From assembly GCA_039566865.1 (NCBI GenBank), contig CM076948.1:14829001-14893000 (forward strand): a DNA stretch of 64,000 nucleotides, in the 5' to 3' direction. The position numbers were made by a program, and so were the translations under genes. This document shows, piece after piece, positions 7,346-41,972 of the stretch (the first letter of the stretch is position 1; every line of letters starts with the position of its first letter). Source of the DNA: Aurelia coerulea (Eukaryota > Cnidaria > Scyphozoa > Semaeostomeae > Ulmaridae). The notes under the pieces were generated by a model. That model was not told the origin of the DNA. It made no database searches and saw nothing but the letters and a program-made list of their open reading frames with translations.

Positions 7346-7790
7346 GGTGAGGCATCATCAGTATAGTAGGGGGATATTCAGAACAGAGAGGGGGTTGCCA
7401 GGGTAGTTACCAGGGGGCCCGGGGCCTCTGTGGGCCAGCAAGAAATAAGGTATGCGTTTCTCTTTGTTGTAGTTTTCTTTCAGGAACGTTTGCATGCCTG
7501 CAGGCCCACTGAGATTCTAAAAAAATCTAAAAGCAGTGTCTTACCAGTGCATAAAGGGGCGTGGCCCAAGGATAAAAGTGCATGCTGCCCGGCCTTTCTC
7601 TCGACGGCCCTGGCGGTAAACACTCATGTTGTTAAATGCTCCCTTGCGCAACTATGAACAGCAGCTTTGTAGATGTGTGTGGTGTGTGATGAGGCATCAT
7701 CAGTATAGTAGGGGGATATTCAGAACAGAGAGGGAGGTAGCCAGGGTAGTTACCAGGGGGCCCGGGGCCTCTGTGGGCCAGCAAGAAATA

Positions 7791-8189
7791 CAGTAGAAAC
7801 CCGCATAAAAGAACCTAGGTATTTTCTGGGCAACCTGAATAGGTTCTTAATTAAATGGCTGCTATTCTAAATTCCAGCCTGTAAGGTTCTTAAAAAGGTT
7901 CTTATATACAAGCAGGCCTTGCACACATTAACACTGTTTTCCAGCCCAAGAATTTTCGAGATTTCTTGAGAATTCTTGAGAACAAATCTTTTGTACCAAT
8001 GAAGAAGTCTGATCAGAATGTGAAGAATTCTAAAAATTCTGGTCATTTTCATAATTTACATGAAAGCTATCATATAAGAACCTTTCCCAGTTTCAGCCTC
8101 TTAGAGGTTCTTATTTAGGGGGTTTAAAAGATTGAATTTCAGCCTCTAGGTTCTTATAAAAACAGGTTCTTTTATGCGGGTTTCTACTG
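7791..8189 (+). mobile_element. 399-bp pogo/Tc1-like MITE, copy 1 (TA target)
   Basis: The ends are CAGTAGAAACCCGCATAAAA and its inverse, flanked by TA at 7789-7790 and 8190-8191. Neighbouring duplicate units near 7449 and 8812 lack the insert and read GAAATAAGG with one TA, so the boundaries are directly confirmed. A TA duplication with CAGT-type termini is what pogo/Tc1-mariner non-autonomous elements show. No transposase ORF is present. A second copy in reverse orientation lies at 16491-16888. Confidence 0.93.
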
Positions 8190-8454
8190 TAAGGTATGTA
8201 TTTTTCTTTGTTGTAGTTTTCTTTCAGGAACGTTTTCAGGCCTGCAGGCCCACTGAGATTCTAACAAAAATCTAAAAGCAGTGTCTTATTAGGACCCGTA
8301 ACCAGGGCAAAATTTTAAAATATGACCCCATAAACCGGGAAACATTTACCACAATAATCGTAACATACAGAGTCAATTGAGCTATAAAAGGGTATCCAAT
8401 GGAATGGTATGGACGAGTGTGGTAGACCTTTTACTGTTGAATTTTGCACACACC

Positions 8455-16463: not shown

Positions 16464-17215
16464 AATATACAGATGAGTGCGGAAGCGCTACAGTAGAAAC
16501 CTGCATAAAAGAACCTGTTTTTATAAGAACCTAGAGGCTGAAATTCAATCTTTAAAACCCCCTAAATAAGAACCCCTAAGAGGCTGAAACTGGGAAAGGT
16601 TCTTATATAATAGCTTTAATGTAAATTATTAGAATGACAAGAATTTTTAGAATTCTTCACATCCTGATCAGACTTCTTCATTGGTACAAAGATTTGTTCT
16701 CAAGAATTCTCAAGAAATCTCAAGAATCCTTGGGCTGGAAAACAGTGTTAATGTGTGCAAGGCCTGCTCGTATATAAGAACCTTTTTAAGAACCTTACAG
16801 GCTGGAATTTAGAATAGCAGCCATTTAATTAAGAACCAATTCAGGCTGCCCAGAAAAAACCTAGGTTCTTTTATGCGGGTTTCTACTGTATAGTAACAAA
16901 AGATAAAAGAGCAGTTGAATACATAAAATCAACAATAACAGGAAGATTAAGAAGTAGAAACCTTTTATGCAATGAAGACAAAACTGAACAACATATCGTA
17001 AATCGTGACAATCGATATGGCACATGGACCAAGTGTAAATATTTAGGGTCAAAGCTAGATACTGAAGAAGATAGGAAACACCGTACCATGCTAGCCACAA
17101 ATGCCATGAACAACCTGACAGAATTATGGACAAGCAATATAAACATAGAGAAAAAGATGGAAATTTTCAATGCATTCATAAGGAGTGTCTATATGTACAA
17201 CACATGCCTATGGAC
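16464..17215 (+). pseudogene. LINE reverse transcriptase C-terminal part, segment 1 (continues at 49404)
   Basis: Plus-strand coding homology resumes on both sides of a MITE (16491-16888). TDECGSAIV, probably a decayed YADD catalytic block, lies just before it. After it come VTKDKRAVEYIKS, KTEQHIVNRDNRYG, CKYLGSKLDTEEDRKH and FIRSVYMYNTCLW. The frame stops being LINE at 17215, where a 9-bp TSD and the terminus of a 32-kb insertion begin. Removing 17216-49403 restores the reading frame within a codon (CLW before, VTSKTRNK after). The LINE is 5'-truncated at about 16464. It is an independent lineage from the other LINEs here. Confidence 0.82.
16491..16888 (-). mobile_element. 398-bp pogo/Tc1-like MITE, copy 2 (TA target)
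   Basis: Reverse-orientation copy of the 7791-8189 element, about 90 percent or more alike by eye over its length. The ends are CAGTAGAAACCTGCATAAAA and CTACTG, flanked by TA at 16489-16490 and 16889-16890. It sits inside the LINE coding region. Open frames within it are not genes. Confidence 0.93.
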
Positions 17216-23332: not shown

Positions 23333-24007
23333 TAGTTGGGTCGAAATCTACGGTCCCGTGACAACTTTTAGGAGACCTTGTTTTGAAAGTTTCTTTTGGT
23401 ATTTTAAAGTATGCTCTACAAAATGGGCCTGGGTACATTTTTATTTTCGATGGGCGTTGGCCGGAAATGACGTCATAAGATTGGCACATAGAAAGTCCTT
23501 TTTACGGTCATAACTCGGGACAGATTAGTCGAATTCATCCAAGTAATGCACCATTCGACTCCTCGTGAGACAAGCTTTCGATTGATATACACTAAATCCT
23601 TTTTTGATTATATCAGTAATTTGTGTTATGACGTCACTGAGTGTTGATGACGTCACAAAAAAGACACAAAGCATGCGGTTCTGACATCACTGAGATCGAA
23701 CACATTTCAAATTTGATTATTGTTTTGCAATATTTATGTCTGTCTTTTAATACAAACTTATAAACTTTCCATGTTAAAAATTGGAATTATCATATCATGT
23801 GCTGAAGTCACTGCCTTAACAGAAATAACTACGTATCATTATAACAAATATTTGTGAACTGTCTGAAATATAAAGCGGGATGATGATGTGAAGAAACATG
23901 CAGTTCTTCACATCCTGTCAAGTAGTCAATCCATGATTAGTTATCAAAAATATTAATTGCACCATCTGGTTCTGAGCTGCTGTCTGAAAGCATCTCATAT
24001 TAGACTC

Positions 24008-24128
24008 TAGCCTGCGTGCAGACTCTACTGATTCCCTGAAGAGAAGTGAGGTTCCTCCTCCAGTAGAACATACTGGAGGAGGAACCTCACTTTTCTTTAG
24101 GGAATCAATAGAGTCTGCACGCAGGCTA
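24008..24128. mobile_element. 121-bp palindromic MITE with 9-bp TSD ATTAGACTC
   Basis: Ends TAGCCTGCGTGCAGACTC and inverse; nearly a perfect hairpin with a GTTCCTCCTCCAGTA centre. ATTAGACTC stands at 23999-24007 and 24129-24137. The partner TIR of the host element near 27195-27215 lacks the insert and has one copy of the target (ATCAGACTC), giving an internal empty site. A 9-bp duplication suggests Mutator-like mobilisation. Confidence 0.92.
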
Positions 24129-24736
24129 ATTAGACTCTGGTTCGGATTCATAGTCAATGTTTTTAACATCTTCTTGTTCGTTGAAACCATTAACTCGTAG
24201 AGTTATCCCATCATCGGGAATTGCTCGCAGCTTGCAGTGTCGACAGAACTGGTTCTAACACAAAAGAATGGTGCCTTCTCTGGTTTCTGGTTGGTTGAAA
24301 TAGTAGTACATAAAGTTGCGACCAGGGTCGAAGCCACCGGGGGAGGAGCGCCCCCTGCAGACTATTTGTCGGAATTTTATTCTTTGGTCGGATTTTTTAT
24401 GATTTACAGGTCTACTTTTGGAAGATTTTGAAGGAGAAATGATGCAAAGAACATGATTTTTTAAACGTTAAAAGATCAAGTCTAGCAGGAATTATTGAAT
24501 TTGTGGCATGCAATTCATAAATCTTTATTAATTGTGTGAGTTGCAAGATTGGATTGCGAGGTAATGCTTGGCTCAGTCATATCACGCATGAATGCAACGT
24601 ATGTTCGTAAAACTGTTGTTGTTGCTGTTGTAATTAATGATTTTCTGTCGGAAAACTTTTGTTCTTTGCCCCTTATGCCGTCATGGCATGTATCGGGTCT
24701 TGTCGCGGCACCGAAACTGATGACCTAGAAAAAGAA

Positions 24737-24996
24737 GCGCGTGGCCGAGTGGTTAAGGCGAGTGACTCGTAAACCAAAGGTCAGAACGGCCGATGTTCGA
24801 ATCCCGCGCTGGACAGTTTGGTCGCTGTCCGTAACTCTAGCCTGGGTCGACCAGAGCCATGCGAGGGAAATCTGGTAGCTGCAGCGGGTTGATGGTAAAA
24901 CATCCGTGGCCCCTGCTGGAAATAAGTCTCTCTCAGACTTTCGCAGGCTAGCCACGTTAAATATGATTACCTACCTACCTACCTACCTACCTATGA
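24737..24996 (+). mobile_element. tRNA-derived SINE
   Basis: It begins with a tRNA-like head: a TGGCCGAGTGG A box at about 24746 and a TGTTCGAATCC B box about 45 bases on, with a CTCGTAAA loop between. These are the internal RNA polymerase III promoter. A tRNA-unrelated body follows (CTAGCCTGGGTCGACCAGAG …) and a (TACC)n tail at 24968-24993. A true tRNA gene would end near the B box; the body and simple-repeat tail make this a SINE. TSD not clear. Confidence 0.82.
24968..24993. repeat. (TACC)n SINE tail
   Basis: Six or more tandem TACC units ending the SINE, the usual simple-repeat tail used for priming by LINE machinery. Confidence 0.9.
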
Positions 24997-25299
24997 ACGA
25001 ATGAAATGGGAAATGAAAGGTGTGATCCTTTTGACGAGCAAGACAAGCACCTTCAATCACTTGAATCTGGATTACTTGCATCCCCAAGTCTTGTTGAAGA
25101 GATCTCAAGTGCATACAAAGAAGGTGAAAAGCGGGTCCAGTCATTTTTAAGGAAGATTTTTCTCATCAAAGAGGCCAATATCAGACAATAAAGAAAACGG
25201 TTGTTACAATTTCTTCACACAAGAGAAACCAATAAAGCACAGCCAGTGCAAACCAAATGAAAGCCAGTGTCCCAGAGGAGCACTCAATACATGCGCATA

Positions 25300-26080
25300 C
25301 GGGGTCAGTTTGAGAAATTTTCAGGAAACCCAAAAATATCAGTTTAGTCTCATTGCAACCAAAAAATATCAGCTCCTTTTTTTAATTTTATTTCTTTACG
25401 CGAACATAAGATATCCCGACACAATGCAAGTTAGAAAGTCGGAATTGCCTCTAAAGAACCCAAAAATATCATTTTCGCAACATTTGATGCCAAAAACTAT
25501 CATGGCCATAATTTCAGCTTATTTGGACCCAAAAATACATCAATTTTGGCAATATTATTTTGCATAATGCTGTGCGTTATTTAAATGCTAGACATCCAAT
25601 TCAAGTGATTGTTTCAGATGTTTGCTTCTTTCTGGAACGGATCCAGACTTTTGAATCTGGCTCATCGTACTGCTGCCGCGGGTGCATCGGTTGGGGGGAG
25701 TCTATGATAAATTGGAAAGTCTTTTTCCCCTAGGGGTTGGATCCCTGAACCTTTGTTTCATTCTCCCTGCCGGTGCGCTCGTGGTTGTGGTTTGGTGGGT
25801 GGTGGGCTGTTTGTGCGGGTTTTGGGGGTACTTCAGTTTTGCCTTGGCCTTTACTTTGTCCCGATTTAGTGTGCATATGTATCTTATTTTTCTGTTTTTG
25901 TTTTTTGTGTTTCTATTATTAATTTATTGTTGATATTACTTAGAAAATTGTAAGTGGCATTTGTAGTGAGGACCCGGTGACCATGCGTCTTTCCTCGCTG
26001 CAAATGCCACAGTAACTTGCATTAACTTGTTGTTTTTAAGTTTTAGATTGATAAAAAAAAAAGAAAAAAAATCTGGTGTG
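25300..26080. other. Non-coding stretch with poly-A-like tract
   Basis: CCCAAAAATATC-type motifs recur at 25320-25545. An AAAAAAAAAAGAAAAAAAA tract at about 26053-26070 follows T-rich sequence and may be the 3' tail of an unidentified retroelement running from about 25600. No gene can be supported. Confidence 0.4.
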
Positions 26081-26394
26081 TGATATTCACAACGACAGCT
26101 TCTACACTGCCAAGCACAACGAAAGCAACTTCTTTAGCGTGTTTTAAATTCATGAAGGCTTTTTGTACAGTTGTTTAGTATCTGTAATGTTAGCTTTCAA
26201 TAGCAAGAAATACCCATTTTGATGGATTTCATTTGTAACATACTTTTGTGTCGGTTTTCGAGATATTTTCGCAAATGTCCGATTACCACCGCCGTCCGAT
26301 TACCACCGCCGACACCCTGAGGCTTTTCTTTCATGCCTCTAAAGTGCTCCTGCAATGCCGAAACCCGATCATAATCGACAGTGAAGATATGGAT

Positions 26395-26880
26395 CTTGGT
26401 GCAATTGCTGCGCAAGCTGCTCATGAGCTTCCTGGCCAAATGATCTTTTATGTATCGGAAAGGCTATCTGTTTGATTGGCCAAGCGTGTTCTTGCTTTCA
26501 CAGGTGCAGATGCAATCAACGGTTTATTTGGTCATGGACTAGTCTTTACGTTGGAGAAAGCGAAAAAAACCCCAGAGCTTGCAGTTTGATTTCTGATCTT
26601 GGATAAAAAACTGAACTATGTCCAGAGGTTGTGCAAAAGTTACCGAATTTGACCACCAAATGTGATTATCGTGATGTATCAAGCCAATCCTTGCAGACGT
26701 GACACAACTAAGATTCTTAGAATGACTTTCAATGAAGTGGTAGAGTACAGAGAGGCTTCTTCCTAACGAAGATTCATTGGCACAGCATTACCGAGGAGCC
26801 AATTACCAATGTAACATTTGGAGACGTTTTCATGAAGCAACTCCAACTCCAACTCCTTGACCGCATGGATGGAAGTTCAG
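26395..26880 (+). pseudogene. Decayed gene of an uncharacterised invertebrate family (tentative)
   Basis: Translating across stops and frame changes gives AAHELPGQMIFY, then ADAINGLFGHGLVFTLEKAK, FNEVVEYREASS, and at about 26777 an ordered block HYRGANYQCNIWRRFHEATP. The order resembles an uncharacterised family I recall from cnidarian and other invertebrate proteomes. In that family a D-rich block precedes an H(A)FTGCD…K-G-K segment and a C-terminal RANYQ..IWRR segment. Here the cysteines are lost and several stops are present. It may be a captured gene inside the 4.5-kb element. Function unknown. Confidence 0.35.
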
Positions 26881-27868
26881 TTCAGTAGGGCTGTTATAAC
26901 CAATAGACCTTTTATAGCTGTTCTAAAAAAATCAGAATCGATCGATATTTTACTACATCTTGTAGAATTTTCGAATGTGCACAATAATAATTGAAGCTCT
27001 ATCGCCACTCGATCGAACCTCGCGTATAAAAATGTATAAGAATAACGCTCGATACTGGCTCTTTTGTAGAATAGCTAAAGGTCTATTCTGTCAACACTCC
27101 CAGCTGTAAGCAATCCCCGATTATGTGATAGTTCCTCGGGTGAATCGTTTCAACAAACAAGATGCTAAGAACATTGACTATGAATCCGAACCAGAGTCTG
27201 ATATGAGATGCTTTCAGACAGCAACTCGGAACCAGATGGTGCAATTAATATTTTTGATAACTAATCATGGATTGACTACTTGACAGGATGTGTAGAACTG
27301 CATGTTTCTTCACATCAGCATCCCGCTTTATATTTCAGACAGTTCACAAACATTTGTTATAATGATACTTAGTTGCTTCTGTTAAGGCAGTGACTTCAGC
27401 ACATGATATGTTAATTCCAATTTTTAACATGGAAAGTTTATAAGTTTGTATTAAAAGACAGACATAAATATTGCAAAACAATAATCAAATTTGAAATGTG
27501 TTCGATCTCAGTGATGTCAGAATTGCATGCTTTGTATCTTGTTTGTGACGTCATCAACGCTCAGTGATGTCATAACACAAATTGCTGATATCATCAAAAT
27601 ATGATTTAGTGTACATCAATCGAAAGCTTGTCTCACAAGGAGTCGAATGGTGCATTACTTGGATGAATTCGACCAATCTGTCCCGAGTTATGACCGTAAA
27701 AAGGATTTTCTAGGTGCCAATCTTATGACGTCATTTCCGGCCAACGCCCATCGAAAATAAAAATGTACCCAGGCCCATTTTGTAGAGCATACTTTAAAAT
27801 ACCAAAAGAAACTTTCAAAACAAGGTCTCCTAAAAGTTGTCACGGGACCGTAGATTTCGACCCAACTA

Positions 27869-28369: not shown

Positions 28370-30400
28370 ACCCCGGCGGGTGCACTTCTATATAAAAGGT
28401 GATACACAAGCTTGTCTGAAGCTTTCCAAAATATACCCTTTTCACTGAGAAAAGTCTCAGCAGTTAGACCCTATTCACTGACATTTTATCGCAATGTTTT
28501 AGAAATTTATACCCCTATTTTGGAGAATCACTGACATGCCCTCCAGGCGGTTTCCTTTAAATGTCACTATATTTAGCCCTTAAATACTGGAAATACTACT
28601 AACTACTCAAAATGGAGCAGAAAATGTGTATATCTCCATTACACATCCATACACTGAAGCACAAATATGGTTTGAGCCATACAGTATGGTATGGTTTCAG
28701 TTATTAACTCTACAAACTTCAGCAAAACTTTGGTTTTCTGCAATCAAAGCTGCCCACAGATTCCTTGATTGATGTATTTCCTGCACTATGGAAACCATTC
28801 ACTATAAATTAATAAGATTTCATTTGGAACTCATTTTCATTACATTACATACATCCCATTTATTTACTTTGCATTTAGGATTTAGGATGTTATTGATATG
28901 ATGTTGTGTAAAAGTATGGTAAAACGCATTGAGTACATTGCATCTTTTTAAAAGCATTAAGAATTTTATTTATTTTCAAGGAAATTGTAAACAAATCTGC
29001 TGCCCTCTCTTGATCTGGACTGCTGATGACCACCAAAAAATCGAACTTTCAAATTTATAGGCCTAACCATCTTACCAATGGCACTATACCAAATTGCACT
29101 GAAACATGTAGCAGCGGCAAAAAATGACACGTTCCTCTGGCTTTCCCTCAGCAATTTTTGTTCATTAACATCATTAACTGCGTAAGGAACCTCATCAGCT
29201 TATCTTGGTCTCAAAATTACTTCAAATGAAATGTAGCAGCGATACATCCTCTTCCTTTTTCCCGCGTTTTTTCACAAAGCCTCGAATTGCAAAAGAGGCT
29301 GTTGCTTCCGGGTTGCTTCCATGAAAAGATGGCTGTGTGTCAGAAAGTAGAAAGGGCAGAGTCTGTTTATATCGTAACAACTTTCAAGTGAATACTGCAC
29401 TACCATGAAGTTACCTGTGGTAACATGTTTTAGTATGAAGATGCCTCTACCTATGCAACTCTGAGAAGATGTTTCCCATCAAACAAAACTGAAAATCTAC
29501 TGAATGAAAAGCTGATCAAAATAGATGAAAACTGACGACTGAGAGAGAAGCAAAAGAAAATAATCAAAGAGAGAGGCAACGTAGAACGCTTTTTCTACCT
29601 GAAACAGCAGTGATGCCAGTCAGAAATACAGACTTATTATCCATTTTGTCACCAAGGAAATCATAATATCGGTTTTGATACAACCATATACAATAATGTT
29701 ATTTTATGGAGCTGCAGATTGGAGCATTAGAGCACTTCTCGATATATTACATTTTCCAGATCAAAGTTGACTGACTTGCCGTTAGTTTAGGCCTGATCTG
29801 ATACATCAAGCACATGACTACTGCAAGTATCACCCACTGTACTAACATGGCTTTACCTAATGGAAAGGAAACACAACCAACACCATTTCAAGAATCTGCA
29901 TGTTAGCTACTACTTGCCTTTGAATATTGTTCAACAGTTGCTGGGTTTTATCCCCTTTTCTACACCTGAATACATAGAACTACTGATGACTTGCTATTAG
30001 TGAGAAAGCTATGCCTAGATTTTTATTAGACTTCAATTGAGGAATTTGATCTGGCCAAAACAAAGATAGTTACATCGTCCCCAAGTGTTTTGTATTCAAC
30101 ATTGTACAGAAAAAGTCTATTATAATTCATGACTTTGAAATCATTCAACATCAAGTTTATTGCACGTAATGACTAGTCAATTGTAACTCACAAGAGGAAA
30201 CCATCAACAACAACCTTATTCTTGAAATTAGTTGTTTTTTAATCAAGTATCTTTTTAAAATCTGCTGACCAAATTGTAAAATAACCCCCCTTTTTTCTAA
30301 ATCCTAGGTCCTAGGATTTGAAAATTTTTTCACCCTATCTCAGTGAATTTACAGACAAGCTTGCGTATCACCTTTTATATAGAAGTGCACCCGCCGGGGT
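28370..30400. mobile_element. 2.0-kb TIR element in BEL RNase H region
   Basis: Termini ACCCCGGCGGGTGCACTTCT and exact inverse; the TIR is about 48 bp (to GATACACAAGCTTGTCTG on the left). The interior has no supported ORF. No matching TSD was found and BEL coding is not continuous across it (about 200 residues absent), so a deletion or exchange has happened here. Confidence 0.78.
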
Positions 30401-30591
30401 GATAACTTGAAAACAAATTTGAACGTTTATGAAGATGAAAACAAGTTATTGCGTTGCCGAGGGAGGCTAGAAAATGCCCCTCTTGATTTTGAATCTCGCT
30501 GTCCAATTATTTTACCAAGGGAAGATCATATCACAGATCTTATTATTAGACAATGCCACGAACATGTAAAACATAACGGCGTAAAGGACAC
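30401..30591 (+). pseudogene. BEL/Pao integrase H2C2 zinc-binding domain, split
   Basis: DENKLLRCRGRLENAPL, CPIILPREDHITDLIIRQCH and EHVKHNGVKDT are the usual wording leading into the BEL integrase. The His residues of the zinc-binding domain are seen here. The two Cys come after the 10.5-kb insertion (CCVCKK at about 41153). The reading frame joins exactly to 41081 once the insert and one GACAC copy are removed. Confidence 0.86.
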
Positions 30592-30599
30592 GTACGATG

Positions 30600-30912
30600 G
30601 CCCAGAAGGCTCAGTTCAGTTTTGTTTTTTCGCAGTTCAGTATTGTTTTTTCGCAGTTCAGTATTGTTTTTTCGCAGTTCACTTTTGTTTTTGGGCAGTT
30701 CAGTTGTAGTTTTTTGGCAGTTCAGTATTGTTCTTTCGCAGTTCAGTTTTGTTTTTTGGCAGTTCAGTTTTGTTTTTGGGCAGTTCAGTTGTAGTTTTTT
30801 GGCAGTTCAGTTGTAGTTTTTTCGCAGTTCAGTTTTGTTTTTTCGCAGTTCAGTTGTAGCTTTTTCGCAGTTCAGTTGTAGTTTTTGCTTCGCAGTTCAG
30901 TTGTAGTTTTTG
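30600..30912 (+). repeat. Left subterminal tandem array of the 10.5-kb element
   Basis: About fourteen units of 18-24 bases built on GCAGTTCAGTTTTGTTTTTT, with ATTG/GTAG and CGC/GGC variants. The inverse array is at 40823-41064. Such arrays commonly bind the element's recombinase. Open frames through it (repeating VLFFRSS) are artefacts. Confidence 0.88.
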
Positions 30913-31007
30913 AACGAGGTTACAGCACATGCGTTATATTGTTGGCCCTAAACCATCCCAAACATAGTAGAAACATAGAGCAAGCCCAGTTGAGGCGAAG
31001 CAACAAG

Positions 31008-34000
31008 ATGCCTATGCCAGCATACCTACCATGCTTAGATTCAATTCGTACAGAGGAAGATGATATGATAGTAGGGTATTTTATTCAAGGCTACACAAAC
31101 CTTGAGATTGTGGCATTCATCAATGATGTACATGGCCAGAACATCAGCCTGTCTACCCTCAAAAGGAGGCTGAGAAATATTGGTTTAAAACGACGCTATG
31201 AAACTGTCCTTACAGACGACGAGTTACGGGAAGTACTATTAAAAGAGCTTGGAGGTAGTGGGTGCTTTGTTGGATATCGAAAGATATGGTCAAGGCTGCG
31301 AAGGAATGGAATCATCGTCAAGCGATCAAGGGTTATGATGCTTCTCAGAGAACTGGATCCTGAAGGTGTAGACTGTAGGAAAAACAAGCGGTTACGCAGA
31401 AGAGCTTACCAAACTAAAGGACCAAATTTCATTTGGCATATAGATGGCCATGACAAGTTGAAGCCCTTTGGGTTTAGTATCCATGCTTGCATTGATGGCT
31501 ATTCCAGAAGACTTATTTGGTTAGAAGTGTCCCCCTCAAATAAGAACCCCGAGGTCATAGGAAGGTTCTATTTGGATGCTGTAGAGCAGCTGGGTGGAGT
31601 TCCACGGAAGATGCGGTCCGATGATGGAACAGAGAATAGTATTGTAGAGGCGCTGCATTTGTTTCTAAGATCTACTCATGATGATGAGGATGTTGTAGTC
31701 CGGTAGCAGAAGGGGGGGTAGTACCACCAAACGAGGTAATTTGTGAGACCAAGTGATTTTGGTCAATTTTGGGGCGTAGAATTCGAATATCGATGTTCTT
31801 TTTGTGGGGGAGGGGCCGTTTTTGAGATATGGGGGTAAATGCCCCCAAAATTGAAGGAAAATGTGTTATTGTTAAGACTCTCAATGTACCCTTTAAAAGT
31901 TCATTTTTAGCTGTAGAACATTGTTAATGGCCCCATCTAGCTCATAAAAGGTACTTTCGAGGTTTCGGATCATTCTGGGGTAACCCTGCCCCCAAATGGG
32001 GGCAACAAAGCAAGATGATTCAAAATTCACTAAAAGTACCTTACCATACCAATTCAGGGGTGTAGAACCCGAATTTCGATGTTATTTTGATGGGAGAGTA
32101 ACTGTTTTTGAAATATAGGGGCAAATGCCCCAAACAGGGGTCAAAGGTCAAAATCTTTTGGTAAAGTTTGATGTTTGTCACCCTAATTAAATCACAAATC
32201 TTACTATCATATTCGTACTAAAATGCTGGTCCATAGCGCTGTTTAGGTTTAAAGTCATCATATTCCTCTCCGAGGCAATGCTGTCCTAAATGTGAGCAAC
32301 CAAGGAAGTCGATTGCTATTTCACTAACAACACATGATCTTATCAATTTAGAGTTATTCTTGGGTGTAGAATCTGAGTTTCGATGTTATGCAGCAATATC
32401 TCTTCCGGTAGAAATATTTTGCATTTTACCCTCACACCATTGATGAACTTGCCACTGGTCGAAAAACGGGAGGAGGAAAACAGGGAGACAAATCTTAAAT
32501 GCAGCCGGGACTTCACTGCTCAAGAGCGCGAAGAACATCTTATATTTTGGATATGGCTGCTAACATCAACGGTATCATGAGAACGCCAGACACATTTATA
32601 AAACAGTATTTCTTGTGACGAAGATAAATTTGGCATATGAACTCCCGATATTCGTATTCCTGCTGACATTAACAAATTTTTAGAAATAATGGAAGGAAAG
32701 AAATAATTTCAAGGCCGATGAAACATGTATGGCTTGAAACCAGTCATTAACTCATTGGACGCTCACTTTTATGGCATGAGATATGTCCTGTATAAAGGCC
32801 AAGAATGGAACATTGATTGATGTGTGAAAGAAATTGAGCATGATCACGAAAAAACAAATGCCACAGAAGCTTTCCTCCACGACGAAAAAGCATTTGACTC
32901 GTGAAATTGTCTGTTGACTCCACAGAATATGGGGCATAGGAACTAAAAAGCTATTGTTTATATCCTTGGCAAGGTGCATAACCCTCCCTTCTCTAACGAG
33001 CCCCCTCTCGGGTTTCCAAAATTACACAAGCCTCCCGTGTATTCTTTGCAAGAGCTTTTACGGTATTCTTCGTAAAGGAAAACAGTTTTGGTGGATACAT
33101 ATGAAAGGTACATTTCTTGTTCGCTGTTTAGGGAACAGTCAAGCAAGATATAATATCTGACCAGAGCTGGATGGATTGGCACTTCTTTTAGGTAGAAGTT
33201 TGAAAGAAAGCAGCAGTATTCATCAAACAAAGTGATGAAAAATATATTTAGGAGATTGAAAGAATATGAAAATGGCATTGACTTGTCTCTCCTTCCACCA
33301 TACCAGACAGCAAATTTTGTTACAAAATATGGTGAAATGCATCAAATCCTGATCGCAAGGTTATCCCTAGGCTGATTACCAGATATAATGATAAAATTGG
33401 ACAGAGGAAGTGTATTCAGAACAGATACATTGGCATTGGCATAAGAGTTGGGTGGCTGGGGTGTGCTGCATAGCCCCTCTAATCAGGCAAAAGTTATTTC
33501 ACTTCAGGCGCGATTCAAGCACTATTAAAGCAACGAAGCCATCATATTGGGCACTATCCATGAAATAAGCCAATCTAAACATTAGGCTGCACCTAAGTCC
33601 AGGAAAGGATAGCAGAGTTGCTGATTAATGCCAGCAATGGAAGAGATGGTCGAGAATAGTGACAATATCTTAAGTTCTGATTTGTTAGCCCATTGCTAGT
33701 TCCTTTGGATTTAGGATTTGCATCCGAATCTTTTGCTCACCGATCGGCAGGCAATTGCATCCGAATTTGACATGTAAGGAAGGATTCCAAACGGAAAAGT
33801 CTCAACGAAAGATGCAAATCACAATAATGCAGCCGAAAGTGCAAACGGGCACACCACCATTGTTATCCTTTACAAGAGAGCATCATGAATAGATTCGCGT
33901 AATTTCATTGGATGATTTAATGGTAAGCCATCGTCCTAATGTCTTTGAAGTGTGGATTTGGATGCGAATTCGAAGTGCAAGGGAACTGGAAATTGGCCAT

Positions 34001-35564
34001 AAATGTAAAAAATAGAGTAACATGAACTTGCGGTAATTACAGAATTTGTTTATTACTGAACTGGTCTATTAACGATCCATTCAACATGTTGCAACTGAGC
34101 CTCTTTATAGGATCATGGCTCAGGGCACCATCCAATGTTTCCCTTGATTGAAAGGAACCATAGGTAGGTATGAAGTTTGAACCGTAAACACAGTAGGACC
34201 AAACAAGGCTCTCTGTTGCAATGTTACTGTCGGAAATTCATAGGATGAGGCACTTCGACCATGAAGTGGACACAGATAATCTCTCTCATTGCCCCCAAAT
34301 TCGGGGTAACATTTCGGGGTTAGAAGAAGGTAACAACCTGAAAAAATAGATTAAGCTATTGCTATTCATGAATTTACTGATCCCAAATTCCATTTCCCAT
34401 AGCTGAAGATCAAAATGTTTATGCTTTGAGTGAGGCGTTCAACAACAACAAACTTTACCCCATTTTTAAGGCAGTCGCCGCTATATTTGAAAAGCTCCCT
34501 TTTCCTGTTAAAATAACATCTTTCTATGAGAATCATTACAAGATTTGAAATGACAAGCACCAAAGGTTACCAAAAGAGTTTGACCTTTGACCCCTATTTG
34601 GGGGCATTTGCCCCTATATTTCATAAACTGTTCCTCTCCCATCAAAATAACATCGAAATTCGGGTTCTACACCCCTGAATTGGTATGGTAAGGTACTTTT
34701 AGTGAATTTTGAATCATCTTGCTTTGTTGCCCCCATTTGGGGGCAGGGTTACCCCAGAATGATCCGAATCCTCGAAAATACCTTTTATGAGCTAGATGGG
34801 GCCATTATCAATGTTCTAAAGCTAAAAATGAACTTTTAAAGGGGTACATCGAGAGTCTTAATAATAACACATTTTCCTTCAATTTTGGGGGCATTTACCC
34901 CCATATCTCAAAAACGGCCCCTCCCCCACAAAAAGAACATCGATATTCGAATTCTACGCCCCAAAATTGACCAAAATCACTTGGTCTCACAAATTACCTC
35001 GTTTGGTGGTACTACCCCCCCTTCTGCTACCGGACTATTGGCTTTGGATGCTTCTCTATCGGAAGATCTACTTCAAATCAGCGAATAGAAGCCTACTGGT
35101 CGCATCTGATAAAGGATAGCCCTGGGTGGTGGCGAAATTTCTTCACTGATCTACGTGATTTGAACTTATTCATTGATTCAGATCCTGTTCATTTGGAATG
35201 CATACGATTTTGTTTCATGGACTTGTTGCGAAAAGAACTTGACACCGTTGCTGATCTTTGGAATCAGCATATCATCTCTTCAAGTAAATATGGAAACAGC
35301 AGTGGCCCAAGAGGGCGTCCAGACTGTATGTTTTTTCTGCCTCATCTGTATGATACACATGACTATATGCAAGATATTACGGCTGTATTGGTTGATGAAT
35401 TCTATGGCGTTACAATTACGCAAAATGATTACAGCCAAGAATTTGAAGAATTTGTAAATATTGTCATGGGAGAAGAAATCGTTTGCAGACCAAGGGATGT
35501 TAAAGAGGGGCTTGAACTTTACCTGAGGCTTCTAACAGAAATAGAAGCATCAAAACAAACATAG
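31008..35564 (+). pseudogene. DDE integrase-like transposase gene, split by a 3.3-kb insertion
   Basis: ATG at 31008 (MPMPAYLPCLDSIRTEEDD). The N-terminal 120 residues look like two helix-turn-helix units (GYTNLEIVAFIND; STLKRRLRNIGLKRR). The catalytic core follows: FIWHIDGHDKLKPFGF (first Asp), SIHACIDGYSRRLIWLEV, and PRKMRSDDGTENSIVEALHLF (second Asp). Codon 230 is then cut at 31697. Coding resumes at about 35040 with STSNQRIEAYWSHLIK (Glu) and ends at 35564, giving about 404 residues in all. This D,D,E order is that of integrase-core (rve-like) proteins common in fish and invertebrate genomes; whether it is Repbase IS3EU or another group I cannot settle. Removing the insert leaves a frame offset of two bases, so the gene is doubly broken. 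Confidence 0.8.
31698..35035. mobile_element. 3.3-kb element with about 470-bp inverted termini, TA target
   Basis: GTCCGGTAGCAGAAGGGGGG at the left is inverted at the right. The two arms (31698 to about 32170 and about 34565-35035) match almost base for base, including a GGGGGCA/TGCCCCC-rich stretch. TA flanks at 31696-31697 and 35036-35037 fit a TA duplication. The interior (32170-34565) has no open frame of note. Phrases such as VINSLDAHFYGMRYVLYKG and EYENGIDLSLLPPYQT can be read between stops near 32740-33300 and may be a dead transposase that I do not recognise. High arm identity suggests recent insertion. Confidence 0.85.
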
Positions 35565-36721
35565 ACTTTCTCTAACCGTAGTGGGATATTTCCCCGATAT
35601 TTCATTCAAAGTGCTGGTCAGAAAATTAAAATACTATATGACCAATATTTTTTCTACCGCTTCATCTCTTCCAACATACGTCATACAGTACTAGTGCCAG
35701 ATGAAATACAGTACGGGTCTCGCATATAAGAAGCAACCTTTTCAATTTCAGGTCTGACATGTTTCTTATAAATTATAGAGTGAGGTAAAATTCAAATCAG
35801 AGCAAAGTTTCTTATTAGAAAAATCATTCACTATCGATCAACTACTCAGACCCAAGCGTTATGATTGTCATGATAAGTGTATCATTTGATTTGCACTGTA
35901 AATCTTCACTTCCAGGAAATGCTATAATTATTCCAGGGAGGTGTTTTGTGCTTTGTTTTTTAAAATAAGAAACACATTTTTTTAGACCTGTACTAGTTTC
36001 TTATAAAATGGGATATTATTTTGAAAATCAGGGTCTGACTCAACAGTTGTCTGTTTTTCGATATTACCACCTCAGCCTCATTCCATAACGACCCTGAGTT
36101 ACATCGCATTGTTGTTGTTGTTGTCACTGCACGGAGGTACTTGTTGCCATAGAAACAGTGCTACCACTCGTAGGGGAATTCCCCTACAGAGGGGGACATA
36201 TGCTTTGGTAGGTTGTAGGGGAAACCTACGGGGAAAATGAGGGTTTGTAGGGGGATTTTGTTCAATAAGGCCAGTTTTCAACAACTTTGGAAAATAGCAA
36301 TAGAAACAGGTAACAGAACAATAGGATGAGGATTGGTCCATATGTCAACAATCGTCAGATTTTCTTCCATGCTCTTGGGATCTCAAGATTGAATGAGGCT
36401 CTCTGAAATCGTTATAGTCCAAAATGAATCTTCTGAGATCGACAAGTGCTAATTGTGTCATTATCAACTCAAAATCACGGCTTTTGTGTACGAAAACTGG
36501 TGAAAATGTAGGGGAATTTGCAACAATGTAGGGAAATGTAGGGGAAATAGATAAATTTAGCGTGGGGGGCTGTAGGGGAAAATCGCATGCGCAGTAGGTG
36601 GAAATTGCAAGGTAGTAGACGATTAAGCATTTCAGTTAAATTTGAGTTCTGGTTGCCTTTTTGGGTTACTTTGCTGGACAAAGGTAGAACCACTTGGGTG
36701 GACTTTGCAATCTAATGTACT
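35565..36721. other. Unassigned interior of the 10.5-kb element
   Basis: No gene supported. GTAGGGGAA-type motifs recur at 36170-36600, including a GTAGGGGAATTCCCCTAC palindrome near 36171-36188. TTTCTTATA/AGAAAC repeats recur at 35760-36005. Confidence 0.45.
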
Positions 36722-36848
36722 CAGGGGCGGTGCCAGGCCTGAAAAAGTGGGATGGACACGTTACAAAATTGTATGCCAAAAGAAATTGTATGACCTCATT
36801 TTTGTTTAAGAACAACAACGGTATTTCCACCCCCTGGTGCCGCCCTTG
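36722..36848. mobile_element. 127-bp hAT-like MITE with 8-bp TSD AATGTACT
   Basis: Ends CAGGGGCGGTGCCAGG and CCTGGTGCCGCCCTTG. AATGTACT stands at 36714-36721 and 36849-36856. CAGGG-type ends with an 8-bp TSD indicate hAT mobilisation. No coding capacity. Confidence 0.92.
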
Positions 36849-37051
36849 AATGTACTCCTTGTGGGCCCTGTCAATGTGGAGAAGTATGATCACAGATTAT
36901 CATCAGATAAAGTCGGTTTAGGTACTGAATGTCAAATCAAACATTACAAGCGAACTAATTTCCAGTGTGACATAAATCTTATGGTAGTAACCAACTCAGA
37001 AGGGGGGGGGGGGCACTTGGTAGGCTTTTCCTTCACAAGGTCAGTTTGATA

Positions 37052-37470
37052 TACCGTAAAAGCTCTGGGGGCTTACTTAATTTTGGCCACTTTTTAGTCA
37101 TTTTTGCGCAACATTTTGCGGTTTAAACATACAATTTTACAAGTTAAATACACAAATTTGACAAAGTCTTACTTGAAAACCAGTGGCGGACACTTTGCTA
37201 AATATTGGGGGGGGGGGGGGCAAAGCTATTTGGTTAAAAAGCATTGTTTGTTTCTATTGTTTTTGAACAAAAGATCTTTGTCCTAGCCAACATTGGGGGG
37301 GGGTGATCACACCCCCTTGCCCCCCAGGTGTCCGCCACTGCTCAAAACACATCAAAATTAACATGCAAACTTATTCAGCTCAATAAATGGAGAATCTTTG
37401 GTAACATCTGGAGTTTGAAATAAGTGGGGGCACTTAATAGAGAGAGGGGCTTAACAGAGCTTTTACCGTA
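37052..37470. mobile_element. 419-bp TIR element with 6-bp TSD TTGATA
   Basis: Ends TACCGTAAAAGCTCTG and CAGAGCTTTTACCGTA; TTGATA stands at 37046-37051 and 37471-37476. GCACTTAATAGA and GGGGGCTTA motifs near both ends are also inverted. It carries a nested hAT MITE (37181-37340). Confidence 0.85.
37181..37340. mobile_element. 160-bp hAT-like MITE nested in 37052-37470
   Basis: Ends CAGTGGCGGACAC and GTGTCCGCCACTG, with a poly-G run inside. The flanks TTGAAAAC and CTCAAAAC match at six of eight positions, a worn 8-bp TSD. Confidence 0.82.
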
Positions 37471-37476
37471 TTGATA

Positions 37477-38654
37477 AGCATATTTCAGACTATGAAAGTT
37501 TCAGGAAATTATTAAAAAACAGTGAAGATTTGCTCAGCAACCTCTTGTCCTCTCATAGAACATACATTGAATAACTTCACACTGCATATTGCAGCAAGAT
37601 TAGATGATACCATGATTTGTTGCTAATATTTGTGGCAATAACTGGTACATTTTGGTCAGTTAAAAATCTTTTGGACTGAACCTATGCAAAAAGCTTCTGA
37701 TGCCCCCTCCCTGAGATATAATGGTTGAAAACATGAACAAAACTAGATGCATCATGCACAACAACAAAATACAGCTGAAAACAAAACAATTCATACAAGA
37801 ATGGAAATTAATCTGAACCTAATCTCTCTGGGAGCTCTAAGAATAGCAATTCTTTAAATAAAAAAAAAATGCTGATGTGGCAACATTAACTTGCACGCTA
37901 CTCTTGTTTTTATCTACTAGGTCCTAATGTTGACTTCACCCACAGTGAAACAGTTTAATAGAACAATCTCTGAGTTATATAACAATTTATTAAGGTATTT
38001 TCAAGTAAGGAATTATCTGTGGCCCAAAGTTTCTGTTAAAGGTGGATAAAACCTTCATCAATTTCAGGAAACAAAAAGCATTTGATAAAGCCAGAACGCT
38101 AGATCCTATCATAAGGGAATCTTTTATTCCTTGGAGTAAAAATGTGTGGAGATATCCTGTGTCAAATCTATGAAGTTCTCTTGACTAAAGTTTCCTGCAA
38201 ATATGAGACAATCACAAGCAAATCTCCCATGGCAGTAAGATTCTCCAGAATATCTAAATGTAGTCTTTACATTAAAGATTTTGAGATTTTGATGCCTTTT
38301 CCTCCAATATTCTCACATATATAGAATGGAGTAGGTCAACTGGGGGGGGGGCTAAAAATGGGTAAGCTATGGTAAAATGGGGCAGATGAACAATGTGAAT
38401 GAGTTATTTTCAAACCCTATTTCACAGAAGATTTTCAACAGCTACAACTGCTTGAACTACCCTCTTTGACCTATTTAATGTTAATTTATCAAGTTTACCA
38501 TTTTCTGAGGCCAATAATCCCCATTTTACTGCAGTCTGTACACATTTTACCCATGCAGACCCTCCCAATTCCTGGGTAATTTGAAAACGATACATATATA
38601 TCTTAATCATTTTACTGTCTAGTGAGTCAATACCTGTGGGATGAGATAAGAATT
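37477..38654. other. Unassigned interior, 3' side of the HECT gene
   Basis: AT-rich sequence with a G11 run at about 38341. On the minus strand it lies downstream of the HECT stop at 38655 and would hold its 3' UTR; AATAAA-like signals on minus (TTTATT on plus near 38124) are present but weak. No other gene seen. Confidence 0.45.
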
Positions 38655-40505
38655 TCACAGAATGTCCATTTCCCATCCGTTCTCCTTGTTCAGAATGTTT
38701 GTAAATTCTTCTCGCAGCTCTACATAATTGCTATAAGTGGAAGGAAGTTCTAAAACCGGTCCACATGTGTGTGCAATTGGCCTGGAACTGAGACCTTCAT
38801 TCCTTGTGAAAATTACCTCCAATTTATCTTCCATCATAACATCTGTTGCAGTTGTGAAGAGCAAAAACTTGACAAGTTTTCCTGCATCTAAGCCTCTCAC
38901 AAATCGTTGAAGATACTTGTAAGCATCCCTTTCACCATCATTCTGAGGTGTGGCGGTCATGTTGCTGAGGACTTTCTTTACAGTTGGTCTTAGCTTTTCA
39001 TAAAATGATTGCAGAGCTCCAATACTGCTGAATTCAGCACTGGACTTCAGTTCTTGGACAATATCCTGCCATGCACCTATCATCAAATGTGGCTTAGAAA
39101 TCAATTCCTGCTTTGCTATTTCCAAAATAACTTTATTCACATTATCCTTTGTGACCATGGTATACACATTGAACCTTTCAAGGAATTCATCTAGCTCTTC
39201 TTCACTCTCTGCAATATTGTCTGATCTCAATACCTTATCAATCAGCTCCTCTTCCATGGGTGATAGGTATCTTTTTAATGACTGTAACAGCATTTCATCT
39301 GGAACCTGATTGCCAAATAAAGTAAAGCAAAGATATGCTTGTGACAGGAAGAGTGGAAAATAAGAAGCTGTCTTAAATCCAACCACAAGAATTCTGGCAA
39401 TTGATTCATACTCGGAAATAAAGTGATCATGCCTGACAAATGGCACTCTTTCCCGTTCTCCTATGGTCATAGAATTTGAGAACTCAAGCCAGAAGTAACT
39501 GAACACTTCTCTATAAACTCCATCACCTGCTCCTTGCTCTGGATTTCCCCTCTTGTCAATGATGCTAAATATCAAGTGAGATGTCAAAACTGATGGATCT
39601 TTGAAATGTTCAATCATATCCGATTTTATTCTGGAGCGATGAACTGTCAAAAGCTTAATGGGCTGCCTTTGCTGCAGATTACTTTCAGATGTTGACATTG
39701 ATTGTGTTGCTGATCCGGTAGGCTCTTCAGCCAATTGCCTTACATTTGTCTGACTTTGGGATATTTCAGTTTCTTCGTTTGTTGATATGATTGGTTCTGC
39801 AGATGTTTGAATCCCATTGAAGGTGTTATCTGCTTCAGAAGTTGGTTGACTCCCATAAGAGATGTTCTCTGCCTCAATTGTGGAGTCAACAATTTTTTCC
39901 AATGTTTCTGTAGCTCCAAACACCTCTATGCGTCTAGCACGAACGTCTTGCAGATTGAGAGCAGCAGCTGCAGGTTGGGGGGATGTAGGGGGTACACTTA
40001 GAATGTCTGCTTGAAGTGACTTCTGAAATTCTTCATCCTGCCAGCACCTTAAACAGAAACTTCCCTGTTCATAGGAGCAGCTGCAAACTTGACAAATCAG
40101 CAAAGTATTAGTGGGAAATGAGCTTGAGGATGGGGCAACAACTGTGTGCTGAGAGGAAGCAGCTTCTTCCAGATCCACTACATTATTGGGTTGTTTGATG
40201 GCTGCTTGAAGTGGTTGAAGTGTAGCTGATGTGGCAGTGCTAGCATTGGCTGAAGACCGTAGTCCCTCACACAAGGACCATGGCTTTGATCTTAAGTATA
40301 GATATGTAGTGGATGGATAGAGACCATTTGCATCGAGGTACTTATGCAATGTTCCATCATCAGGAAAGTGATCAATTTCTTTCTGTGTTGCATCACAGAC
40401 CTCTAATCTCATGTCCAAAACATTTCCGGCAAAGCCACTCTCTCCACCTGGGAAAAATATGTCAGAAGCTTTTCGTAGGACATCCTCTATGGTTAATGGA
40501 TCCAT
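38655..40505 (-). CDS. HECT-type E3 ubiquitin ligase-like protein, transposon-borne
   Basis: One uninterrupted 616-codon frame from ATG at 40505 to a stop at 38655. Residues 1-76 (MDPLTIEDVL… YLYLRSKPW) read like a small ubiquitin-like fold. Residues 138-154 form a Cys cluster (CQVCSCSYEQGSFCLRC), followed by DEEFQKSLQADI, similar to a ubiquitin-interacting motif. A Ser/Thr/Gln-rich linker leads to a HECT domain from about residue 284 (HRSRIKSDMIEHF, DKRGNPEQGAGDGVYREVF). It ends with RPIAHTCGPVLELP, so Cys581 is the predicted thioester cysteine in the usual HTC context. HECT enzymes take ubiquitin from an E2 and pass it to substrates; the nearest named relatives are probably G2E3-like. It converges on the integrase-like gene, and its 5' end is about 300 bases from the right subterminal array. 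Intact frame among broken neighbours is notable. Confidence 0.85.
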   Translation of the reverse strand: MDPLTIEDVLRKASDIFFPGGESGFAGNVLDMRLEVCDATQKEIDHFPDDGTLHKYLDANGLYPSTTYLYLRSKPWSLCEGLRSSANASTATSATLQPLQAAIKQPNNVVDLEEAASSQHTVVAPSSSSFPTNTLLICQVCSCSYEQGSFCLRCWQDEEFQKSLQADILSVPPTSPQPAAAALNLQDVRARRIEVFGATETLEKIVDSTIEAENISYGSQPTSEADNTFNGIQTSAEPIISTNEETEISQSQTNVRQLAEEPTGSATQSMSTSESNLQQRQPIKLLTVHRSRIKSDMIEHFKDPSVLTSHLIFSIIDKRGNPEQGAGDGVYREVFSYFWLEFSNSMTIGERERVPFVRHDHFISEYESIARILVVGFKTASYFPLFLSQAYLCFTLFGNQVPDEMLLQSLKRYLSPMEEELIDKVLRSDNIAESEEELDEFLERFNVYTMVTKDNVNKVILEIAKQELISKPHLMIGAWQDIVQELKSSAEFSSIGALQSFYEKLRPTVKKVLSNMTATPQNDGERDAYKYLQRFVRGLDAGKLVKFLLFTTATDVMMEDKLEVIFTRNEGLSSRPIAHTCGPVLELPSTYSNYVELREEFTNILNKENGWEMDIL

Positions 40506-40822
40506 ATCACTATACTGTATGAAACGATTACCGCCGCCATTCTTATTTCTTCTGCCGAACAGGCTCGGATCTCCCTTTTATCCAGTTGAAGTGTATTCAT
40601 CGTATCTGGATCCTGTGATCTTTCCCTCCCTTTTTCCTTTTCTTGCCTCTTTCGTTCTTTCTTATTCTGTCAAGAAGTCCAGATAATCGATTGACTGATC
40701 TGGATTGCTGTGTTTGATTTTGGACAGTTCTTGCTCGCTGTAGAATGGCATCTATCTTGATGTTTCGCGCCAAGATGGAAGGAGAGGCATGTGCTTTGAC
40801 CTCGTTCAGAATCAAAAGCAAA

Positions 40823-41064
40823 ACTACAACTGAACTGCGAAGCAAAAACAATACTGAACTGCCAAAAAGCAAAACTGAACTGCGCTGCCAAAAACCAAAA
40901 CTGAACTGCCAAAAAACTACAACTGAACTGCCAAAAAACAAAACTGAACTGCGAAAAAACAATACTGAACTGCGAAAAAACAATACTGAACTGCGAAAAA
41001 ACAATACTGAACTGCGAAAAAACAATACTGAACTGCGAAAAAACAATACTGAACTGAGCCTTCT
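40823..41064 (-). repeat. Right subterminal tandem array of the 10.5-kb element
   Basis: Eleven or so units of AAAAAACAATACTGAACTGC with variants, the inverse of the array at 30600-30912. The last five units next to the tip are identical. It lies upstream of the HECT ORF and could also hold its promoter; that is inference. Confidence 0.88.
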
Positions 41065-41075
41065 GGGCCATCGTA

Positions 41076-41972
41076 GACACTTTAACAGAATTGCGTACCA
41101 ATTATTGGATCGTACGGGGCAGACAAAAGGTTAAAAAGTTCATTGCAAAATGTTGCGTTTGTAAGAAAGTTGAAGGGAGAAGTTATACTGCTCCTCCACA
41201 GCCACCTTTACCCAATTTTATTAGACTAGATATCGGACATGCGTTTACAAAGGTTGGAATTGACTTCGCAGGACCAGTTTATGTGAAAAACATGTACGGA
41301 ACTGATGCAAATATGTATAAAGCTTACATACTGCTAATCACTTGCGCTTCTAGTCGAGCTATACACTTGAAGCTTGTACCGAGTTTACACGTCGAACCGT
41401 TGATTCGTGGTCTGAAACGCTTTCAGTCGCGAAGAGGAATTCCATCGTTTATAATCAGTGACAACGGTAAAACTTTCAAAGATTCGAAATTACGTGCGTT
41501 TTTACTCGACAATAGGACGATTTGGAACTTTATTGTAGAGAGAGGAGCCTGGGTCGGAGGTTTTTACGAGCGTTTAGTGCAGTCGACGAAGAGATGTTTG
41601 AAAAAGATTTTGAAAAACGCGAAATTAACGTACGAAGAAATGTTAACCCATTTGATCGAAGTTGAAGGAGTTCTTAATTCTAGGCCCTTGACTTATGTAT
41701 ACGATGAAATCGGAGAAGCTTTGACACCTTCTCATCTTATTTGCGGGCGCAGATTGTTAGACAGACCAAAACTGAATCCAAATGCGCAAATTGTGGAAGT
41801 CGAAAACAAAGTGGAATTGTCGAAGCGTGCAAACTATTTGCAGCAATTGTTGGAGCATTTTAGAAATCGTTTTCGGCGGGAATACTTAACAAGTCTGAGA
41901 GAGTTTCATACATCTAAATCGCCCAGCGGAAATAGAATTATTAAAGAAGGACACATCGTGACAGTTCTATGA
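41076..41972 (+). pseudogene. BEL/Pao integrase, C-terminally truncated
   Basis: The frame resumes with LTELRTNYWIVRGRQKVKKF, the CC.CKK zinc-binding Cys pair and PPLPNFIRLDIGHAFTKVGI. The core carries VGIDFAGP (Asp), SRAIHLKL, SFIISDNGKTF (Asp) and VERGAWVGGFYERLVQSTKR (Glu), the complete D,D,E set, then LNSRPLTYV and LTPSHLICGRRL. It stops at 41972 after GHIVTVL. The DUF5641-like tail and 3' LTR normally found next are absent; unrelated repetitive sequence follows. Integrase would insert the retrotransposon DNA into chromosomes. Confidence 0.88.

Follow-up and report, generated by a model that had tools for sequence, protein, structure and literature searches.

Predicted HECT ubiquitin ligase genes are paired convergently with integrase-type transposase genes in probable IS3EU transposons of Aurelia coerulea

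Integrase-type transposases with a D,D,E core are encoded by Ginger1/2, Polinton and IS481EU elements as well as by the IS3EU (GingerRoot) superfamily. Polintons are larger than the element considered here and carry a DNA polymerase gene, and Gingers have other ends. The duplications of IS481EU are 4, 15 or 25 bp long, whereas IS3EU elements have TA..TA termini, 6-bp duplications and a D,D,E core that lacks an HHCC motif upstream; the available portions of the source mention no HECT or ubiquitin gene (PMC10045372). Fungal IS3EU elements, according to the accessible sections of PMC12730594, have termini TAYGG..CCRTA and carry companion genes for a TET/JBP dioxygenase and an alpha-kinase, the latter oriented oppositely to the transposase gene, and exchange of partners between lineages was reported for the TET/JBP genes. 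A window of 64,000 nucleotides from the scyphozoan Aurelia coerulea (the whole stretch that was analysed, positions 14,829,001 to 14,893,000 of contig CM076948.1) was found to contain a transposon with an integrase-like transposase gene and a HECT-like ubiquitin ligase gene in convergent orientation. Both genes are enclosed by the ends of the element in two copies of the window's family and in all seven copies of a second family, and the convergent pairing recurs across the genome. No report of a HECT gene in such a transposon and no paper with both 'IS3EU' and 'HECT' were found in the literature searched, which leaves out most subscription journals and probably Repbase Reports and hence is not proof of absence.

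The transposon is real, it sits inside the pol gene of a BEL retroelement (Table 1) and the BEL frame is open when the flanks are joined without it. Inverted arrays of a 21-bp tandem repeat lie inward of both ends (30612-30911 and about 40820-41056). The original prediction, made from the letters alone, had claimed the inverted ends, the arrays and the restoration of the BEL frame, all of which held, together with an exact 5-bp duplication GACAC, which did not. GACAC is the matching part of a 6-bp duplication with one mismatch, GACACG on the left and GACACT on the right, and this is the best reading of the flanks, since the duplications of other copies are 6 bp long and a 6-bp reading lets each tip start with TA. 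It puts the first base of the element at 30593.

A search of the 574-Mb genome with the 22-bp tip, allowing up to two mismatches, gave 16 matches (12 exact and four with one mismatch) and none with the reversed control. These form five pairs and six single tips. The C7 pair (7,156 bp) encloses both genes in open form, with 402 aa for the integrase and 697 aa for HECT, each counted from Met. Neither gene is present in the pairs on C2, C3 and C16, which for that reason resemble non-autonomous derivatives. A single tip on C5 adjoins a HECT N-terminal fragment, and for the other 5/6 the 7-8 kb fetched contained no internal match. Among the copies seen, none of this family thus had an integrase and lacked HECT. 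One and the same HECT N-terminal fragment was observed at C5:8.01 Mb (L015) and C22:9.23 Mb (L021), each 94.9% identical to the C7 copy, and is likely one deletion derivative present twice.

A second, distant family is bounded by paired tips TATGGCGCGCC..GGCGCGCCATA, with termini TATGGCG..CGCCATA. Identity to the C7 copy, taken for the member on C22, is about 34% for HECT and about 23% for integrase. Seven copies of 10.1-15.3 kb, which account for 14 of the 28 tip matches, all enclose both genes; the integrase frame is stop-free in 7/7 and the two duplications checked, TGGTTC and TGGCAC, are exact 6-bp repeats. The ligase had been proposed as a stable accessory of the transposon, a proposal that these seven copies and the open C7 copy bear out. 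Copies with the window's own tips and no HECT gene, which would count against the proposal, make up 3/5 of the paired-tip copies, but the same three lack the integrase too.

The recurrence of the pairing was investigated with HECT loci listed from the window HECT query, with three extra places from a C8 HECT query and later a G2E3-like HECT query, and with integrase loci from two queries, for which the best 102 of 586 and the best 116 of 542 candidates were scored. Before the G2E3-like query was added, 21/49 listed HECT loci lay within 8 kb of an integrase and all 21 were convergent, against 0.34 expected (uniform placement, 10 kb). With it, 56/123 had a listed integrase no more than 10 kb away, compared with a mean of 4.0 and a maximum of 15 in 1000 circular shifts. 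By nearest neighbour 52 of the 56 were convergent, two tandem and two divergent, and for 53 an integrase in convergent orientation lay inside the 10-kb limit. The pattern is not that of a host gene captured once, and given these 56 loci and the 7/7 copies of the second family this explanation was dropped. The G2E3-like query itself gave 37/76 listed loci paired with integrases, 33 of them convergent, and P0193, a relative of the L031 ligase, carries the name 'G2/M phase-specific E3 ubiquitin-protein ligase-like'; the suggested transposon origin of G2E3-like genes thus gains support. Terminal inverted repeats were looked for at the C8 locus L022 and not found. Long inverted arrays are present at L023 on C13, but the sequences bordering its ends do not form a matching duplication.

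Both genes of the window copy are broken and the copy is therefore dead. The HECT gene had been taken for an intact 616-residue protein; the HECT-like open reading frame (ORF) and its HTC context stand, and the N-terminus of about 80 residues is no longer intact. HECT proteins P0003 (689 aa) and the C7 copy start ~80 codons upstream of the window's 616-residue ORF. The corresponding stretch of the window lacks a start Met, is interrupted by an in-frame stop and does not share the frame of the main ORF. The claimed integrase gene does encode a D,D,E integrase-like protein, and is split by a nested element.

On its own the window HECT protein scored 18.9 bits against the Pfam HECT cut-off of 23.9, and the C7 copy, at 19.4, is also under it, so that the assignment of the window protein rests on its relatives and predicted fold. 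The relatives L022, L024 and L031 are above the cut-off (37.5, 25.3 and 61 bits). A cysteine at the catalytic position of the C-terminal lobe was found in 47/48 relatives reaching the column and 16/16 in alignment A3, and a bilobed HECT fold was recovered in structure prediction; fold and catalytic cysteine are thus supported for the predicted ligase. Among near HECT copies, nonsynonymous changes are fewer than neutrality would give. A HECT domain with a catalytic cysteine is likewise found in G2E3 and further animal HECT ligases, in the parts of PMC2837046 and PMC12920882 that were available, whereas here the gene lies inside transposons and in many copies. The HECT N-terminus had no Pfam match above chance. 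Searching the PDB sequences gave nothing useful with the HECT profile and only weak UBE3A matches (best E 0.11) with the window HECT protein alone. Scans confirmed no relatives of either gene in viral contigs. A HECT-like protein of 791 residues at L035:160-2532, whose HECT part is ~24% identical to that of the window protein, has the same N-terminal GGG..LFFPNGKS domain.

The integrase-like protein matches Pfam rva_4, and the rva_4/rve domain is the integrase-type D,D,E core of the transposase. The triad is conserved in aligned relatives (D149 in 37/38, D208 in 38/38 and E249 in 37/38), the transposase fold resembles those of IstA and prototype foamy virus (PFV) integrase, and no HHCC zinc motif was seen by eye in P0062.

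By its ends, duplication length and transposase type, and not by a tree with reference IS3EU proteins, the window element is likely an IS3EU superfamily DNA transposon. TA..TA termini are present in both families, and those of the second (TATGG..CCATA) match the fungal pattern as given in the accessible part of PMC12730594, whereas the fifth base of the window's family differs (TACGA). The 6-bp duplication is present in both, exact in 2/2 for the second family and in 1/5 for the window's, and the D,D,E core without HHCC is present in the window family. An integrase of this class at L025:3897-5234 has a CxxC-type N-terminus. Unlike the described IS3EU elements, these carry a HECT ligase gene convergent to the transposase, and unlike the fungal ones their host is an animal.

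Table 1. Coordinates of the transposon, its genes and its flanks in the window
Feature	Position	Strand	Remarks
BEL retroelement pol, left of insertion	30383..30586	+	
Left target-site duplication	30587..30592	.	GACACG; 6 bp; one mismatch vs right copy
Whole transposon	30593..41075	.	10,483 bp; termini TACGATGG..CCATCGTA
Left terminal inverted repeat and 21-bp subterminal tandem array	30593..30911	+	about 14 units
Transposase piece 1	31008..31694	+	HTH-like N-terminus, D149, D208
Nested terminal-inverted-repeat element	31696..35037	.	3,342 bp; TAGTCCGG..CCGGACTA; long inverted repeats; TTG on both sides; interrupts transposase gene
Transposase piece 2	35037..35561	+	E249, C-terminus
HECT-like ORF	38655..40577	-	640 codons open, 616 from first Met; AHTCGP catalytic-type motif near C-terminus
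HECT N-terminus remnant	40549..40764	-	MDAILQ-like start lost; in-frame stop; frame differs from main ORF
Right subterminal tandem array and terminal inverted repeat	40820..41075	-	
Right target-site duplication	41076..41081	.	GACACT
BEL retroelement pol, right of insertion	41082..41972	+	rve core

Elsewhere in the window an inverted-repeat insertion lies in the same BEL element region (23333-27868; 676-nt arms, 96% complementary) and long inverted repeats built on TACAGTAGAAACCCGCATAAAAGAACCT lie at 7788-8191 and 16489-16891. Two inverted, partly tandem repeat pairs, 50199-50503/53365-53786 and 59641-59749/62652-62760, each resemble the ends of another element.

Protein records suggest the same HECT-integrase neighbours in the octocoral Dendronephthya. 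LOC114515611 (HECT) and LOC114515612 (integrase) of Dendronephthya gigantea have consecutive numbers and contigs of the same size, and the records P0034 and P0111 also share a contig size (17,235). Trees built from 11 pairs placed the window lineage with these two record pairs for both genes (support 0.993 and 0.976). The C17 HECT grouped with the C22 HECT, to which it is 50% identical, whereas their integrases are about 17% identical. The deep trees of the two genes disagree, which makes exchange of HECT and integrase partners between lineages likely. Comparison of the trees thus gave agreement near the window's lineage, and among the deep families the idea of strict co-divergence was given up.

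The favoured reading, given a probability of about 0.5, is that of an IS3EU-like transposon with two convergent genes whose predicted ligase ubiquitinates host chromatin proteins that silence the element, and so helps it. The predicted transposase would cut and insert by D,D,E chemistry and the predicted ligase would use HECT thioester chemistry via its invariant cysteine, both judged from homology and predicted fold. The ligase would then ubiquitinate chromatin proteins otherwise silencing the element, which would escape with the help of its own enzyme. Host silencing at chromatin is a best guess for the target, made by analogy, and is favoured because fungal IS3EU transposases have TET/JBP and alpha-kinase genes as companions and because in mammals the H3K14 residue of heterochromatic histones is ubiquitinated by G2E3, itself a HECT ligase, as stated in the part of PMC12920882 that was available. 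A broader proposal, that animal IS3EU-class transposons have the ligase as their second core gene, needed against silencing, and that such elements are the main source of invertebrate G2E3-like expansions and of vertebrate G2E3, is doubtful.

Several observations weigh against the favoured reading. As many as 67/123 listed HECT loci had no listed integrase within 10 kb and as many as 143/199 listed integrase loci had no listed HECT; both counts are upper bounds, because both listings are cut short and only the best integrase candidates were scored. Four unpaired HECT loci that were fetched had no integrase in 5-5.5 kb downstream, and no HECT gene was present in the 9 kb fetched at integrase locus L025. 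The HECT frame of the second family is unbroken in 4/7 copies, has one stop in one and is split in two, and some copies, e.g. two of the second-family copies on C5, may be segmental duplicates and not separate insertions. Duplications around the five pairs of the window's family carry one mismatch in 4/5. Residues 645-665, around the catalytic cysteine, have a predicted local confidence score (pLDDT) <50 in the model. Distances for the two genes correlate weakly over the 11 pairs (Mantel r 0.33, p 0.016; Spearman 0.10, p 0.47).

The main rival to an anti-silencing role is that the predicted ligase acts on its own transposase or transpososome, marking the integrase complex for removal after strand transfer or limiting the amount of transposase, which would let insertion run to completion and restrain copy number. 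In phage Mu a host unfoldase removes the stable strand-transfer complex, a precedent that counts for this idea, as do the strict pairing of the HECT gene with a transposase in one element in convergent layout and the agreement of the paired trees in the window's lineage. The HECT and integrase types are not locked together, however; the mismatch between C17 and C22 makes a strict enzyme-substrate pair difficult, and partner exchange, itself likely from the trees, would speak mildly against transposase turnover, which is judged a tentative possibility. HECT ligases in general have repair, checkpoint or antiviral substrates, and the ligase could instead remove such a non-chromatin host factor and favour insertion. 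Nothing in the sequence speaks against this and nothing specific speaks for it, the putative substrate-binding N-terminus being the part without a Pfam match; it is considered unlikely. The unpaired loci counted above would fit a HECT gene that is a chance-captured passenger of no use to the element. The excess of convergent pairing over the control, which is large, both genes in 7/7 copies of the second family, a cysteine invariant over very divergent families and the deficit of nonsynonymous changes in near copies all argue otherwise, and a mere passenger is very improbable.

It is likely, by analogy with the companions of fungal IS3EU elements, that these mobile elements use their own predicted ligase to overcome host control. 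If so, ubiquitin ligases would be a new entry among the few host-modifying enzymes that transposons carry, and multi-copy HECT and 'G2E3-like' genes would be explained, many of which in this genome adjoin a transposase in a fixed convergent layout. For gene annotators there is the caution that such HECT genes are likely mobile. The pairing also offers a testable system for how a transposon may use ubiquitin to act on the chromatin of its host or on the transposase that it encodes.
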